From the NCBI GenBank assembly GCA_947176995.1, contig CAMWSY010000005.1, forward strand, positions 1 through 35,263: 35,263 bases of DNA. Reading direction: 5' to 3'. Each line of letters starts with the position of its first letter. Position 1 is the first letter of the stretch. This DNA comes from an uncultured Porphyromonadaceae bacterium (GTDB taxonomy: Bacteria > Bacteroidota > Bacteroidia > Bacteroidales > Muribaculaceae). Below the pieces are notes generated by a model, which made no database searches, was not told the DNA's origin, and saw only the letters and a list, made by a program, of their open reading frames with translations. Made by a program: the position numbers and the translations under genes. This document shows positions 12,072 through 19,374 of this stretch, piece by piece.

Positions 12072-12689
12072 ATGAAAAAGGCTCTTACCCTTCTCGCTGT
12101 GATATCAGCGATACTTTTTGCTCCCTGCGCGGCATCGGCTCAGTCGGCATCCGACATTCTCTCAAAACTCGGAACTGTGGCAAACAATGTGCTTGGCTCC
12201 GGAAAAGTCACAATTGCCGATCTTGAAGGCACATGGAGCTATGTGGAGCCTGCGGTGGAGTTCAAGAGCGACAATCTGCTGAAAAAGGCCGGTGGATCGG
12301 TTGCATCCACAACGATAGTCAATAAGCTGAAACCTTACTATCAGAAAGTGGGCATGGATAAAATGACCCTTTCGGTCGACTCTGCCGCTACATTCAAGAT
12401 GTCTGTTGGCAAGATTCCGCTCACAGGGCAGATCGTGGCATCGGAGACCGACGGCCAGTTTGTCTTTCAGTTCAAGGCTGCAAACAAGATCAACATGGGC
12501 AAGGTGAACGCCTATGTGTCGAAGACAGCCACAGGTCAGATAAAACTCACGTTTGACGTTTCCAAACTCATCTCGCTTGTCGAGACAGTGGCAAAAATAT
12601 CCGGTAATTCATCCATGAAGACTGTTTCATCGATGCTTACATCCTATGATGGTCTCACTGCAGGATTTGTTTTGAAAAAATCTAAATAA
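12072..12689 (+). CDS. DUF4923-like secreted protein
   Basis: Signal peptide MKKALTLLAVISAILFAPCAASAQ followed by a DUF4923-like body (LEGTWSYVEPAVEFKSDNLLKKAGGSVA...). Confidence 0.75.
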   Translation: MKKALTLLAVISAILFAPCAASAQSASDILSKLGTVANNVLGSGKVTIADLEGTWSYVEPAVEFKSDNLLKKAGGSVASTTIVNKLKPYYQKVGMDKMTLSVDSAATFKMSVGKIPLTGQIVASETDGQFVFQFKAANKINMGKVNAYVSKTATGQIKLTFDVSKLISLVETVAKISGNSSMKTVSSMLTSYDGLTAGFVLKKSK

Positions 12690-12692
12690 AAA

Positions 12693-12724
12693 TTTGCAGG
12701 GATTTATAAAAAAATATATTTTTG
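12693..12724 (+). promoter_or_regulatory. Promoter of the trp operon leader
   Basis: TTTG (12693-12696)-N20-TATTTTTG (12717-12724). Confidence 0.75.
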
Positions 12725-12749
12725 CCTTTGTAAAAACAAAAACGTAATT

Positions 12750-12821
12750 ATGTCAACGACCACAAACTACAACAGCAAGTTTTATTGGTGGCGTCGGAAG
12801 GATCTCTTTCGATGGCGTTGA
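12750..12821 (+). CDS. trp operon leader peptide (23 aa, below the ORF-track length cutoff)
   Basis: Hand translation MSTTTNYNSKFYWWRRKDLFRWR*: tandem Trp codons at 12786-12791 and a third at 12813-12815. Upstream of a terminator and trpB. Confidence 0.85.
   Translation: MSTTTNYNSKFYWWRRKDLFRWR
12792..12814 (+). promoter_or_regulatory. Pause/anti-antiterminator hairpin of the trp leader
   Basis: CGTCGGAAGG (12792-12801) pairs with TCTTTCGATG (12805-12814): 10 bp including G-U pairs, 3-nt loop. Confidence 0.6.
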
Positions 12822-12870
12822 CGTGCGATTTTACTTGATATAAGCACCATAAATTAAAATTAAAATAAAT

Positions 12871-12916
12871 AAACCATCGATGGATCCGGTAAGACACTGA
12901 CCATCGATGGTTTTTC
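12871..12916 (+). terminator. Intrinsic terminator (attenuator) in the trp leader
   Basis: AAACCATCGATGG (12871-12883) / CCATCGATGGTTT (12901-12913), 13-bp perfect stem, 17-nt loop, followed by the T-tract. Confidence 0.85.
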
Positions 12917-12918
12917 AT

Positions 12919-12957
12919 TTCGTGATTAATACTTTGTAATAAGTTTAGATCACTTCA
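12919..12957 (+). promoter_or_regulatory. Unknown 5'-leader element, copy 1 (upstream of trpB)
   Basis: TTCGTGATTAATACTTTGTAATAAGTTTAGATCACTTCA is 30/40 identical to the epimerase leader (counting one flanking base). GTGATT/GATCAC arms with a 20-nt loop. Confidence 0.5.
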
Positions 12958-12968
12958 TTTATAATATA

Positions 12969-14162
12969 ATGAAATACAAAACAACACTTCCGGTCGACGA
13001 AAAAGGCTTCTACGGACGCTTTGGAGGAGCCTATATTCCTGAGATTCTCTATAGCAACGTCTCCAATCTTAAAAAGGCGTTTGCTGAGGCCATTGACGAC
13101 CCCGCTTTCATCAGCGAGGTTGAGACGTTGCTCGCCGACTATGTGGGGCGTCCATCGCCATTGTATAAGGCTGAATCCTTGTCGCGTCATTATGGTGCTA
13201 AGATCTATCTGAAGCGCGAAGACCTGAATCACACAGGCGCCCACAAGATAAACAACGCAATCGGGTCTGCGCTTCTGGCACGTCGCATGGGCAAGACACG
13301 TCTTATCGCCGAAACCGGGGCGGGGCAGCATGGAGTAGCCACGGCGACTGTTGCGGCGCTGCTGGGTATGCCGTGCGTGGTATATATGGGGGCGACCGAT
13401 GTGGAGCGTCAGCAACCCAACGTGCAGCGTATGCGTATGCTTGGTGCCGAGGTGCGCCCCGTTCATTCCGGCAACAAGACCCTGAAAGATGCCACCAATG
13501 AGGCTATCCGCGACTGGTGCTGCAATCCGGCCGACACATTTTATGTTATCGGAAGCACAGTCGGTCCGCATCCCTATCCCGAGATGGTCGCCTATTTCCA
13601 GTCGGTGATAAGCCGCGAGATCAAGGCGCAGCTTCTGGCCAAGGAAGGGCGTGAGAATCCTGATTATGTGATAGCCTGCATCGGAGGAGGAAGCAATGCT
13701 GCCGGAGCATTCTACCATTTTATTGATAACCCTGAGGTGAAATTAGTTGCGGTGGAGGCTGCCGGGCTTGGTACTGACACCGACATGACAGCCGCCTCGA
13801 TTCTTACCGGAACGCCGGGCATACTCCACGGCTCGCGCACACTACTGTTGCAGACCGACGACGGTCAGATCATCGAACCCTACTCTATATCCGCCGGTCT
13901 CGACTATCCCGGTGTAGGTCCGCTTCATGCGTTCCTTGCTGAGTCGGGACGCTCTAAGGTGCTTGCGGCGACCGATGACGAAGCGCTTGCGGCTGCCTAC
14001 TTCCTCACCCGCAACGAAGGAATAATTCCAGCCCTTGAGTCGGCACACGCGCTTGCAGGGCTTGAAAAGATAAAGTTCAACAAAGATGATATTGTCGTGG
14101 TTAACCTATCGGGACGCGGCGACAAAGATATGTCGACATATATCAGCCATTTGGAAAAATGA
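12969..14162 (+). CDS. trpB: Tryptophan synthase beta chain
   Basis: [71 protein letters not shown]. Confidence 0.97.
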
Positions 14163-15550
14163 AAACAATAACCACACTTCTCCCGGCCGATCTGGAGACC
14201 CCGGTGGGGATATATCTTAAAGTCAGGGATATATACCCGCAGTCGGCACTGCTTGAGAGTTCTGACTACCACACCACGCAGAACTCCGTGTCGATTATCG
14301 GTGTGGATCCGGTAGCTCATTTCATGGTGCGCAATGATGAAATAGAGCAGACATGGCCCGATGGGCGGAGCACAAGCATGAAGGCCGACCACACCACCGT
14401 GGTTCGCGAGCTGCGCAATTACACAGCCTCATTCAGCGCTCTGGCTGTACCCGGTGTCACCAATGGGCTTCTCGGTTACACTGCTTATGATGCCGTGCGC
14501 TATTTTGAGCCGACAGTTCCTGTCAGCAAGCCGGCTCCCGAGTTCGCCCACATCCCCGACATACTCTATATTTTCTACCGCTTCATAATTCAGGTCAATC
14601 ACTTCCGCAACGAGATGACCATAGTGGAGAATATACCCGATGGCGGCGTGTCCGAAACTCCCCGGCTCATCAGCATCCTGAAAAACAACAATATGCCCCT
14701 CTATGGCTTTACGGCTGCCGATGACGTCACTTCCACACTTACCGATGAAGGCTTTATGTCTATCGTCGAGAAGTGTGTGGCTCACTGCAAGCGTGGCGAT
14801 GTGTTTCAGATTGTCCCTTCTCGCCGGTTTTCTCAGGGCTTCAAGGGCGATGATTTCAACGTCTATCGTGCTCTCCGTTCAATCAATCCCTCCCCTTATC
14901 TTTTCTACTTCGATTTCGCCTCTTTCAGGGTGTTCGGTTCATCTCCCGAAACACATCTGCGCGTTAAGGATGGCAAGGCCTATATTGATCCGATAGCCGG
15001 AACGTTCCGACGCACCGGCAATGATACCCGCGACCGCGAGCTCGCCGAAGCTCTCCTTCATGACGAGAAAGAAAATGCCGAACACATCATGCTTGTCGAC
15101 CTTGCACGCAACGACCTTAGCCGGTCAGGTGGAAAAGTCGATATCGAGTTCATGCGGCAGATTCAGTTCTATTCCCATGTGATCCACATGGTGTCGAGAG
15201 TACGTGCCGAGCTTCCTGCCGATGCTGACATCTTTGCGCTATTTGCCTCGACTTTCCCTGCCGGCACTCTTAGCGGCGCACCAAAAGTGAGAGCCATGCA
15301 GATCATCGACTCCCTTGAACCACATGCCCGCAAGATCTATGGCGGATGCCTCGGCTATCTCGGATTCGACGGCTCGATTAATCAGGCGATCACCATCCGC
15401 ACGTTTATCAGCACCGGTCAACGTCTTTACTCGCAGGCCGGAGCGGGAATCGTTGCGCACTCCTCACCCGCAACCGAATTGCAGGAGACAAACAATAAAC
15501 TCGGCGCTCTGCGCGGTGCCGTCGATATGGCCTCACGTTTCAACCCATGA
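14159..15550 (+). CDS. trpE: Anthranilate synthase component I
   Basis: [10 protein letters not shown] feedback-site motif, [45 protein letters not shown]. Confidence 0.95.
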
Positions 15551-16134
15551 TACCGACTGCTCAAATGAAACTACTTGTATTCGACAACTACGACTCGTTT
15601 ACCTACAACATAGTCCATGCTTTGCGTCAGCTCGGTGTCAATCCCGATGTGCGTCGCAACGATGCAATAACTCTCGACGAAATTGACGCTTACGATAAAA
15701 TCATAATCTCTCCGGGACCCGGTATACCCGAGGAGGCCGGTTTGCTCATGCCCATGCTTGAACGCTACGCCTCCGTCAAACCGATTTTGGGAGTGTGTCT
15801 CGGCCATCAGGCTATAGGTCAGCATTTCGGCGCACGTCTCCACAATCTCACCGACGTGTTTCATGGTGTGGCAACCCCCGTTGTTGTGACCGACACAACC
15901 GATTATCTCTTCGATGGACTTCCTACTGAGATAGAAGTCGGCCGTTATCACTCATGGGTGGTCGACCGTGAGAATTTCCCCTCCGATCAGCTTGAGATCA
16001 CGGCCGTCGATGAATCCGGCATGATCATGGCGATGCGCCACCGCTGGCTCGACATACATGGAGTGCAGTTCCACCCCGAGAGCGTCCTGACCCCGCAGGG
16101 CATGAAAATCATTGAAAACTGGCTTAGACACTGA
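15547..16134 (+). CDS. trpG: Anthranilate synthase component II (glutamine amidotransferase)
   Basis: VFDNYDSFTYNIVH, ISPGPGIPEEAG, GVCLGHQAIG, VQFHPESVLT. Start at 15547 (ATGA overlap with trpE) or 15565. Confidence 0.94.
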   Translation: MIPTAQMKLLVFDNYDSFTYNIVHALRQLGVNPDVRRNDAITLDEIDAYDKIIISPGPGIPEEAGLLMPMLERYASVKPILGVCLGHQAIGQHFGARLHNLTDVFHGVATPVVVTDTTDYLFDGLPTEIEVGRYHSWVVDRENFPSDQLEITAVDESGMIMAMRHRWLDIHGVQFHPESVLTPQGMKIIENWLRH

Positions 16135-16145
16135 TACTGCGAATT

Positions 16146-17141
16146 ATGAAAAATCTTCTTTACCGCATGTTTGAGCATGGCAACCTGTCGCGCACCGAAG
16201 CGCGCGATGTTATGCTCAATATCGCCGACGGACGCTACAACGACTCTCAGCTTGCAGCCTTCATGACAGTCTTTCTCATGCGCAGCATCACTACCGATGA
16301 GCTTACCGGGTTCCGCGATGCGATACTTGAGCGTCGTCTGCCCGTTGATTTCGGCGATGTCGACGCTATCGACATTGTAGGCACTGGCGGCGACGGCAAA
16401 AATACCTTCAATATCTCCACCGCATCCTGTTTTGTCGTGGCCGGCACAGGGCGCAAGGTCGTGAAGCATGGTAACTATGGAGCCAGCTCCGTCTCGGGTG
16501 CATCCAATGTGCTGGAGCATCATGGAGTGAAGTTCTCCTCCGATATCGATAAACTGTCGCGTTCCCTCGACGAGAGCGGAGTCTGCTACCTTCATGCACC
16601 TTTTTTCAGTCCTGCGCTCAAGAGCGTGGCTTCGGTGAGGAAATCCCTTGCCGTGCGCACCTTCTTCAACATGCTCGGCCCGCTTGTCAATCCCGTTCTT
16701 CCGCGTCATCAGCTTCTCGGGGTATATAACCTCAAGCTCATGCGGCTTTACACCTACATAGCCCAGAACGAGGGCATAGCCTGCACGGTGGTGCATTCGC
16801 TCGATGGCTACGATGAAATCTCGCTCACATCGCCGTTCAAGGTGTCGGGCCCGACAGGGGAGCGCATCTACCGTCCCGAGGAGCTTGGTTGGGCAACTGC
16901 ATCGCAGCAGGAATTGTGGGGAGGCGACACCATAGCCGAGGCTGCAAAGATTTTTGATGACGTGCTCGACGGCAATGCAACTCCTGCGCAGGAAAATTGT
17001 GTGGTTGCCAACAGTGCCTTTGCGCTTGTCACCCTTGAGCCCCGTCTCTCCATTGCCGAGGCTCGTGCGCTTGCCGAGGAATCTATCCATTCGGGCGCGG
17101 CACGCAAAGTATTCAACAAATTCTGCGAGATAAACCGATGA
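16146..17141 (+). CDS. trpD: Anthranilate phosphoribosyltransferase
   Basis: DIVGTGGDGKNTFNIST, KHGNYGASSVSGASNVLEHHG. Confidence 0.95.
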   Translation: MKNLLYRMFEHGNLSRTEARDVMLNIADGRYNDSQLAAFMTVFLMRSITTDELTGFRDAILERRLPVDFGDVDAIDIVGTGGDGKNTFNISTASCFVVAGTGRKVVKHGNYGASSVSGASNVLEHHGVKFSSDIDKLSRSLDESGVCYLHAPFFSPALKSVASVRKSLAVRTFFNMLGPLVNPVLPRHQLLGVYNLKLMRLYTYIAQNEGIACTVVHSLDGYDEISLTSPFKVSGPTGERIYRPEELGWATASQQELWGGDTIAEAAKIFDDVLDGNATPAQENCVVANSAFALVTLEPRLSIAEARALAEESIHSGAARKVFNKFCEINR

Positions 17142-17926
17142 ACGATATCCTTCAGAAAATAGCCGCTAACAAGCGTCGGGAAGTCGCAGCCATTGATCCG
17201 GGCGACAGAGCGCTCCAGCATCTCATAGCTGTCTATGACAAACTGCCCGATACGCATTCCATGGCGGCCAGTCTGCGCTCTACTCCCGGCGGTATTATCG
17301 CCGAGTTCAAGCGCCGTTCTCCATCCAAGGGTGAGATCTTCCCTATGGCCGACGTTGCCGAGGTGATTCCGCAATACGTTCAGGGCGGTGCAGCCGCTTG
17401 CTCGGTGCTTACCGACACCCGTTACTTCGGAGGGGCTTCAACCGATCTGGCTGTCGCGCGCACATTGGCCGGCGGAGTGCCGCTTTTGCGCAAGGACTTT
17501 GTGGTCACCCCGGCGCAGATATATAACGCCCGTCTGCTTGGGGCGAGCGCGATTCTCCTTATTGCGGCTATTCTTACACCCGATGAGCTGGAGCAGTACA
17601 ATAACCTTGCCCATACACTCGGCATGGAGGCGCTTGTGGAGATACACGATATAAGCGAGCTCGATAAAATCAACTTCCACCCCGACATGCTTGGAGTCAA
17701 CAACCGCGATCTATCATCGTTCCACACCGATGTGAATCATTCGATGGAACTTGTCGCATCACTCCCCGCCGACACCCTGCTGGTAGCTGAGAGCGGAATC
17801 AAGACGCCTGCCGACCTGTGCCGACTGCGTGATGCCGGATTTACAGGATTTCTGATAGGGGAGGCCTTCATGTCGACTCCGGAACCCGGTGCAACACTAA
17901 AAAAATTTATCAATGCAACAGTCTGA
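17138..17926 (+). CDS. trpC: Indole-3-glycerol-phosphate synthase
   Basis: IIAEFKRRSPSKG, LRKDFVVTPAQIYNARLLGASAILLIAAIL, LVAESGIKTPAD. Confidence 0.95.
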   Translation: MNDILQKIAANKRREVAAIDPGDRALQHLIAVYDKLPDTHSMAASLRSTPGGIIAEFKRRSPSKGEIFPMADVAEVIPQYVQGGAAACSVLTDTRYFGGASTDLAVARTLAGGVPLLRKDFVVTPAQIYNARLLGASAILLIAAILTPDELEQYNNLAHTLGMEALVEIHDISELDKINFHPDMLGVNNRDLSSFHTDVNHSMELVASLPADTLLVAESGIKTPADLCRLRDAGFTGFLIGEAFMSTPEPGATLKKFINATV

Positions 17927-18629
17927 AAATCCGTCGGCACCCCGTCATGCTGACATGATGCTGAAAATATGCGGAATGTGCGATCCTGACAATATTGCTC
18001 AGGTTGCATGTCTCACTCCCATGCTCATGGGATTTATATTCTGGGAAGGCTCCCCGCGCAATGCCATAGGCATATCCCGTGACGTGTTCGACACCCTTCC
18101 CCCCTATGTGCGCTCCGTAGGTGTTTTTGTCAACGCTCCTCTTGAGGAGATTGTTGATACCACATCGCGCTACGGCATCCGCGTCGTTCAGCTCCACGGT
18201 GAGGAATCCCCGCAGTGCTGCAAGGAATTGCGCGACAGAGGTTATGCCGTCATAAAAGCAGTGAAAGTGCCCGCCGGAGCCAATAAGTTCTTCCTGTCAC
18301 TGCTTGAGCCTTATCGCGGGTGTGTCGATATGCTACTGTTCGACACTTCAGGAAGCAAGCCCGGAGGCAATGGCAGTAAATTTGACTGGGCGGTTCTCGA
18401 TGATTACACCCTTGGCATACCATATATGCTCAGCGGTGGCATAGGTCCCGATGATGTGGAGACGGTAAAAGCGGCCATGAAGCCCGGACTTGCCGGGATT
18501 GATCTCAACAGCCGCTTTGAGACCGCACCCGGCCACAAGGACGTCACCCGACTCGCCAACTTCATTCTTCAACTACGCAAACTCAACGAAAATGAACCGA
18601 TTGACCGCCCTTTTTGGGAAAAAGCATAA
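17913..18629 (+). CDS. trpF: Phosphoribosylanthranilate isomerase
   Basis: MLKICGMCDPDNIAQVA, VVQLHGEESPQCC, LFDTSGSKPGGNGSKFDW, GIDLNSRFETAPGHKD; overlaps trpC by 14 nt. Confidence 0.93.
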   Translation: MQQSENPSAPRHADMMLKICGMCDPDNIAQVACLTPMLMGFIFWEGSPRNAIGISRDVFDTLPPYVRSVGVFVNAPLEEIVDTTSRYGIRVVQLHGEESPQCCKELRDRGYAVIKAVKVPAGANKFFLSLLEPYRGCVDMLLFDTSGSKPGGNGSKFDWAVLDDYTLGIPYMLSGGIGPDDVETVKAAMKPGLAGIDLNSRFETAPGHKDVTRLANFILQLRKLNENEPIDRPFWEKA

Positions 18630-19374
18630 CGACATTCTTTCTGTTTTCTTCACCGCCGGATATCCGCATATCGACAGCACTGTGCCCGTCATACAAGCTC
18701 TTGCCAGCAAGGGAGTCGATATGGTCGAAATCGGTATTCCGTTCTCCGACCCCATGGCCGACGGCCCTGTTATTCAGGCAAGCAGCTCAAAGGCTCTTGC
18801 TGGTGGCATGACACTGCGACGCCTTATCGGTCAGGTAAAGGAGGCGCGGGCTAAAGTCCCCGACATGCCCTTCATCCTCATGGGATATCTGAATCCCGTG
18901 ATGCACTACGGTATAGAAGACTTTTTCCGTGACGCGCATGAAGCGGGTGTCGATGGTGTTATTATCCCCGACCTTCCGTTCGACGACTATTTATCCGACT
19001 TCAAGGAACTCAGCCGGCATTACGATATACCCATGATCATGCTTATCACACCTGAGACCTCACCCGAGCGTATCAGGTTGATCGACAGCCATTGCGACGG
19101 ATTTATCTATATGGTGTCGGCGGCATCGACAACCGGTGCTAAAGACCGTTACAGTGAAGAGCAGCTTGATTACTTCCACCGCATCAACGCGATGAATCTC
19201 AAGCATCATCGCCTCATCGGTTTCGGTATATCCAACCCTGTCACATTCGGTCAGGCTCAGGCAAGTGCATCGGGCGCGATTATCGGCTCACACTTCATCA
19301 AGTGTCTTGACAAGGCCGATGGCGACCCCGACAAAGCCGTGGATATGCTTTTGCAATCGATAGGCCGCGCTTAA
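18592..19374 (+). CDS. trpA: Tryptophan synthase alpha chain
   Basis: MNRLTALFGKKHNDILSVFFTAGYP, MVEIGIPFSDPMADGPVIQ, GVDGVIIPDLPFDD. Start trimmed from the track's 18490 to 18592; overlaps trpF by 38 nt. Confidence 0.94.
   Translation: MNRLTALFGKKHNDILSVFFTAGYPHIDSTVPVIQALASKGVDMVEIGIPFSDPMADGPVIQASSSKALAGGMTLRRLIGQVKEARAKVPDMPFILMGYLNPVMHYGIEDFFRDAHEAGVDGVIIPDLPFDDYLSDFKELSRHYDIPMIMLITPETSPERIRLIDSHCDGFIYMVSAASTTGAKDRYSEEQLDYFHRINAMNLKHHRLIGFGISNPVTFGQAQASASGAIIGSHFIKCLDKADGDPDKAVDMLLQSIGRA

Follow-up and report, generated by a model that had tools for sequence, protein, structure and literature searches.

A conserved tandem-tryptophan leader peptide and a putative ribosome-mediated attenuator upstream of the trp operon in Muribaculaceae

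Comparative analysis of the region upstream of trpB indicates that the trp operon of a Muribaculaceae bacterium is very probably governed by a ribosome-mediated transcription attenuator, in which a ribosome would stall at the Trp codons of a short leader peptide. The window analysed is the whole stretch of 35,263 nucleotides of contig CAMWSY010000005.1, and all features described here lie on its forward strand. A sequence-only reading of this DNA had proposed a translation-coupled Trp attenuator; the comparative data strongly support it, through the conserved open reading frame (ORF) with tandem Trp codons (WW), the pairings between the RNA arms, the protector hairpin and the held-out matches of a covariance model. 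Judged from sequence, the Trp attenuator is of a kind already known, and what is new is the RNA pairing that would decide its outcome in Muribaculaceae.

The leader ORF and its locus

The leader peptide ORF (MSTTTNYNSKFYWWRRKDLFRWR*; 12750-12821, 23 codons) is conserved in the family. It contains Trp codons at 12786-12788, 12789-12791 and 12813-12815 and ends with a stop codon at 12819-12821; 147 nt separate this codon from the ATG of trpB (12969). The tandem UGG UGG (12786-12791) is the proposed stall site, and its six columns are invariant among 34 aligned leaders. The Bacteroidales promoter consensus is TTTG-N20-TAnnTTTG, and a promoter of this type (12693-12724) precedes the ORF, with TTTG at 12693-12696, a 20-nt spacer and TATTTTTG (TAnnTTTG) at 12717-12724; the −7 element TAnnTTTG was present 5′ of the leader ATG in 35/40 homologous leaders compared to 5% in shuffles. 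An intrinsic terminator (12871-12916) follows, with a stem formed by 12871-12883 and 12901-12913 and a T-run. The window sequence and its folding placed leader ORF, promoter and terminator exactly where the sequence-only reading had put them, and confirmed its 23-residue ORF with tandem Trp codons between the other two elements.

Downstream, trpB (12969-14162; Pfam PALP and trpB homologues) is the first gene of the operon that the leader would control, and trpE, trpG, trpD, trpC, trpF and trpA (14159-19374; Pfam) complete the order trpBEGDCFA according to the Pfam content of the window. The upstream neighbour encodes a DUF4923 lipocalin-like protein (Pfam). Within the gap between terminator and trpB, a stretch of about 45 nt (12913-12960) corresponds to the right end of a repeat that is dispersed in the genome, with copies at five other places; the repeat looks like a MITE, since its copy at locus L006 has terminal inverted repeats (TGAAGTGATGTAAACTTA...TAAGTTTAAATCACTTCA). 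This gap measures 56 nt in the window and 19 nt in the same-genus locus L008.

Records named Muribaculaceae and Duncaniella share their leaders with loci of the window's family, in agreement with its placement in Muribaculaceae. We scanned the 46 same-family trpB loci with enough upstream sequence for ORFs of 8-45 codons that start with ATG and contain WW. Such an ORF was found 5′ of trpB at 40/46 loci versus 14/2480 dinucleotide shuffles (0.56%), and nearly all family WW ORFs are followed by a terminator-like hairpin. Five or six of the 46 loci lack a WW ORF; L039 has the WW motif in an ORF interrupted by an N. Across the phylum, a WW ORF was seen at 47/78 named trpB loci, almost all of them in Bacteroidales. 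This comparison of sequences confirms that the WW leader ORF upstream of trpB is not a chance occurrence. The earlier reading had staked its claim on conservation of the WW codons in homologous leaders; they are conserved, and the claim stands.

Two WW candidates were set aside: the ORF at L138, which has no good terminator and whose sequence resembles the coding DNA of relatives at the same place, and the peptide at L082, dismissed as chance. At L038 and L084 (Duncaniella sp.), a single-Trp ORF (MKQNASYYLRWRRFGLLIRPK...) occupies the leader position and is possibly a decayed or altered attenuator. The leader is absent from L010 (G026:C45), of the same genus as the window, where the DUF4923 stop codon abuts the trpB ATG (AATAATG); promoter, peptide and attenuator are therefore missing there. 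The gene trpB was found in 48/149 family genomes, and in 38/110 of those of good quality, so many Muribaculaceae appear to be without this trp operon.

A covariance model, R1, was built on the family leaders (34-leader alignment), the window included. It gave 84 bits on the window, from which it was in part built, and about 70 strong matches in 397 family genomes. All 16 held-out strong matches examined lie 5′ of trpB and encode a WW peptide, typically WWRIGNNYRWQ, and four weaker matches (down to E 8e-6) do so as well. The weak matches L206, L207, L209 and L213 (E about 1e-6 to 4e-5), considered as paralogous leaders, were rejected as chance terminator-like matches because they have no WW ORF or trp gene. 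A search of the window's genome with R1 gave no second strong match besides the trp site.

Alternative pairings of the leader RNA and the proposed mechanism

The leader RNA can form three mutually exclusive pairings among four arms. Directly 3′ of the Trp codons in the window, arm 1 (12792-12800) pairs with 12806-12814 to form a protector hairpin (1:2; −13.0 kcal/mol, z −3.0), and the segment from WW+3 to +36 folds better than its own shuffles in 40/40 leaders (mean −11.5 versus −6.4). Arm 2 (12806-12815) supplies the 3′ side of this protector (12806-12814) and also the 5′ side of the antiterminator (12809-12815, UCGAUGG), whose partner is arm 3 (CCAUCGA, 12874-12880), located inside the 5′ arm of the terminator (3:4). 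The terminator, from 12871 to 12913 plus the T-run, has a folding energy of −21.8 kcal/mol (z −5.6). Among the 34 leaders, the antiterminator 2:3 shows 88.4% standard pairs and 28 double-changed cells versus 11.5 in shuffles, and the terminator 91% standard pairs and 55 double-changed cells versus 19.9; since the shuffles leave relatedness in, these counts are to be read as support and not as probabilities. Arms 2 and 3 vary jointly (CGAUGGC/GCCAUCG, AUCGGCGG/CCGCCGAU, GCAUCGGUGG/CCACCGAUGC and GCGACGCCU/AGGCGUCGC), and arm 2 scores 20.9 against its own terminator 5′ arm, compared to 16.5 ± 0.46 when arms are swapped among family members. On this alignment evidence, 1:2, 2:3 and 3:4 are conserved as alternative pairings, the latter two with compensatory changes. 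Since arm 2 encodes part of the peptide as well, conservation of the residues ...RW may reflect, at least in part, a constraint on the RNA.

At its leading edge, a stalled ribosome extends some 12-13 nt beyond the codon in the A site, and arm 2 starts a median of 22 nt past the first Trp codon in the family leaders. With this general footprint length, a ribosome stalled at WW would reach to just short of arm 2, masking arm 1 and leaving arm 2 free. The layout of the locus, in which a tandem-Trp leader peptide and then an intrinsic terminator precede the trp genes, is that of a ribosome-mediated Trp attenuator.

In the mechanism that we propose, transcription would begin at about 12730, with translation of the leader peptide following behind RNA polymerase. 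When Trp-tRNA is scarce, the ribosome is predicted to stall at the UGG codons 12786-12791 and to mask arm 1, and arm 2, thus freed, would pair with arm 3, no terminator would form and trpBEGDCFA would be transcribed. When Trp is sufficient, the ribosome would reach the stop codon (12819-12821) beside arm 2 and cover this arm, arm 3 would pair with arm 4 and transcription would end. The terminator should form too if the leader is not translated, with arm 2 trapped in the 1:2 hairpin. We infer the stalling, its timing and the Trp response from this arrangement of parts, by which the leader should switch the trp genes on only at Trp shortage.

Folding energies constrain how such a switch could work. 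In the window, 2:3 amounts to 7 contiguous pairs versus 13 for the terminator, and L008, the closest relative, has a 2:3 run of just 6. The fold of 12804-12892 containing 2:3 is no stabler than shuffles (z −0.3), and with arm 2 free and all of the RNA present, the minimum-energy fold of the window leader is the terminator. Because the equilibrium favours the terminator, antitermination would have to be kinetic, taking place before arm 4 is made. Contact between arm 2 and a ribosome at the stop codon is predicted for only 23/41 family leaders; in the remaining leaders, 1:2 would have to re-form.

Antiterminator topologies in Bacteroidales and competing explanations

To compare leaders across the order, arm 2 was scored against the terminator 5′ arm (score A) and against the terminator loop plus 3′ arm (score B). 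Muribaculaceae (42 distinct leaders) gave a mean A of 21.2 (shuffled 11.7) and B of 12.3 (shuffled 11.9), with A exceeding B in 37 and B exceeding A in 3. Conversely, the other Bacteroidales together with two outlying family members (37 leaders) gave an A of 10.5 (11.8) and a B of 19.0 (11.7), with B higher in 35/37 and A in 2; the contrast of 37:3 versus 2:35 has a Fisher p of 5e-16, calculated on related rows that are not independent. Outside Muribaculaceae, GTCGTGAG or GTCGTAAG (GTCGTRAG) lies at about WW+26 to +30, often over the leader stop codon, and complements the terminator loop and 3′ arm CTCACGAC. In this 2:4 form, the loop could give arm 2 a first pairing partner while the 3′ arm is still incomplete. 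On the trpB tree, one change separates the two topologies if L047 is left out and two if it is included; L047 was counted as unclear because its B match is off position, a threshold on the scores set the states, and ten ambiguous rows (L007, L008, L026 and L078; L041, L096, L098, L126, L128 and L153) were assigned by eye for this count. These results suggest that the trp attenuator of Bacteroidales probably exists in two topologies, which share peptide, position and terminator, differ in the half of the terminator that arm 2 captures, and are separated by one switch.

Two family members carry the second topology, L053 (G148) and, by a loose match, L041 (G083). Their trpB sequences group with those of Bacteroidaceae and Tannerellaceae. 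This grouping suggests a joint move of operon and attenuator, possibly by horizontal transfer. The leaders of L096, L098 and L101 (rumen Bacteroidaceae/Bacteroidales) have a terminator and a weak antiterminator (GTCGC/GCGAC, 5 pairs), and could possibly represent a third form.

The window could itself use the second topology: in an otherwise identical attenuator, the partner of its arm 2 would be the terminator loop plus 3′ arm. The palindrome CCATCGATGG occurs in both terminator arms of the window, arm 2 scores 18 with either, and 2:4 is the rule in other Bacteroidales; being self-complementary and present in both arms, the palindrome makes the two topologies indistinguishable from the window alone, which is assigned by its family. 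Since the rest of the family scores far above shuffles for A and near them for B, we regard the 2:4 reading of the window as unlikely.

Other explanations dispense with a stalling ribosome altogether. Promoter and hairpin might merely serve as an insulator between the DUF4923 gene and trp, and the WW ORF might be incidental; intergenic promoters and terminators are commonplace, and L010 manages without them. However, the terminator sits 3′ of the trp promoter and would block trp itself, and shuffles come nowhere near the conservation of the WW ORF and of the arm pairings, which makes insulation highly improbable. Equally hard to credit is a non-ribosomal sensor, such as a T-box, a TRAP-like protein or a Trp riboswitch, governing the terminator. 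T-box and TRAP systems do regulate trp operons in other phyla, but no Rfam family reaches its threshold here, and conservation centres on the tandem Trp codons within the ORF and on pairings just past the stalled ribosome. The ribosome-mediated attenuator with 2:3 antitermination therefore remains our preferred reading.

Relation to known leaders and significance

The Bacteroid-trp RNA (Rfam RF01692) was described by Weinberg et al. 2010, where it appears in the main text as a table row only (PMC2864571). The window leader resembles it in belonging to Bacteroidota, in its location 5′ of trp genes, in its short tandem-UGG ORF and terminator, and in the distance of about 22-30 nt from the first Trp codon to arm 2. 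It differs in that the antiterminator arm CGAUGGC of window and family pairs with the terminator 5′ arm, unlike GTCGTRAG, which pairs with the loop and 3′ arm and is absent from the window leader; the peptide endings differ as well (WWRIGNNYRW(Q/R) in the family versus, typically, WWWRxLQLxKS). RF01692 had no match in the window at gathering (49 bits) or up to E 10 and none in the window's own genome; none of the 149 family genomes has a match over the cut-off, and the best score, 40 bits, comes from a genome with a trpB that does not cluster with the main set of the family. Of the RF01692 matches from the order, 15/16 contain a WW ORF, and most of those inspected by eye have the second topology. 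The structure drawn by Rfam has neither pairing: it shows a long leader hairpin and breaks off within the terminator 5′ arm. Since the window leader does not reach the score threshold and lacks the common RF01692 pairing, we do not file it as a member, and on present sequence evidence it is best described as a homologous-looking, structurally distinct variant. The sequence-only reading had left the choice between a divergent Bacteroid-trp and an independent example, and the answer falls in between: position, peptide and terminator kind agree with Bacteroid-trp, and the RF01692 match and antiterminator topology do not.

Against the 4227 Rfam families, searched up to E 10 over 12550-13050, no family reached its threshold; matches below cut-off were taken as chance (e.g., Ocean-V on the other strand, 31.3 versus 75 bits), and the enterobacterial Trp leader model gave no match at all. 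The E. coli trpL attenuator combines tandem Trp codons with a 1:2 protector, a 2:3 antiterminator and a 3:4 terminator. The family leaders share this design, including an antiterminator that uses the terminator 5′ arm, although sequence and phylum are unrelated, so the likeness would most simply be explained by convergence. In flavobacteria, of the same phylum, leader-peptide attenuation has been inferred 5′ of amino-acid operons in a paper whose passages on the subject name no trp leader (PMC9723704); in the flavobacterial trpB loci of our set, unlike in the window, no short WW leader followed by a terminator was recognised. Bacteroidetes are not named in PMC2965389, and we found no paper on a Muribaculaceae trp leader in the open-access literature.

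Together, these results point to a candidate Trp sensor for about 70 of the 397 sampled genomes of the family, left unannotated by the Rfam model. Muribaculaceae are abundant mouse gut bacteria, and the loss of the leader in L010, within the same genus, offers an uncontrolled relative for comparison. The two topologies form a natural comparison in which an attenuator would change its pairing partner and keep its logic, and they show why one covariance model misses a whole family. If true, this would be a naturally occurring example of rewiring in a regulatory RNA that keeps its function.
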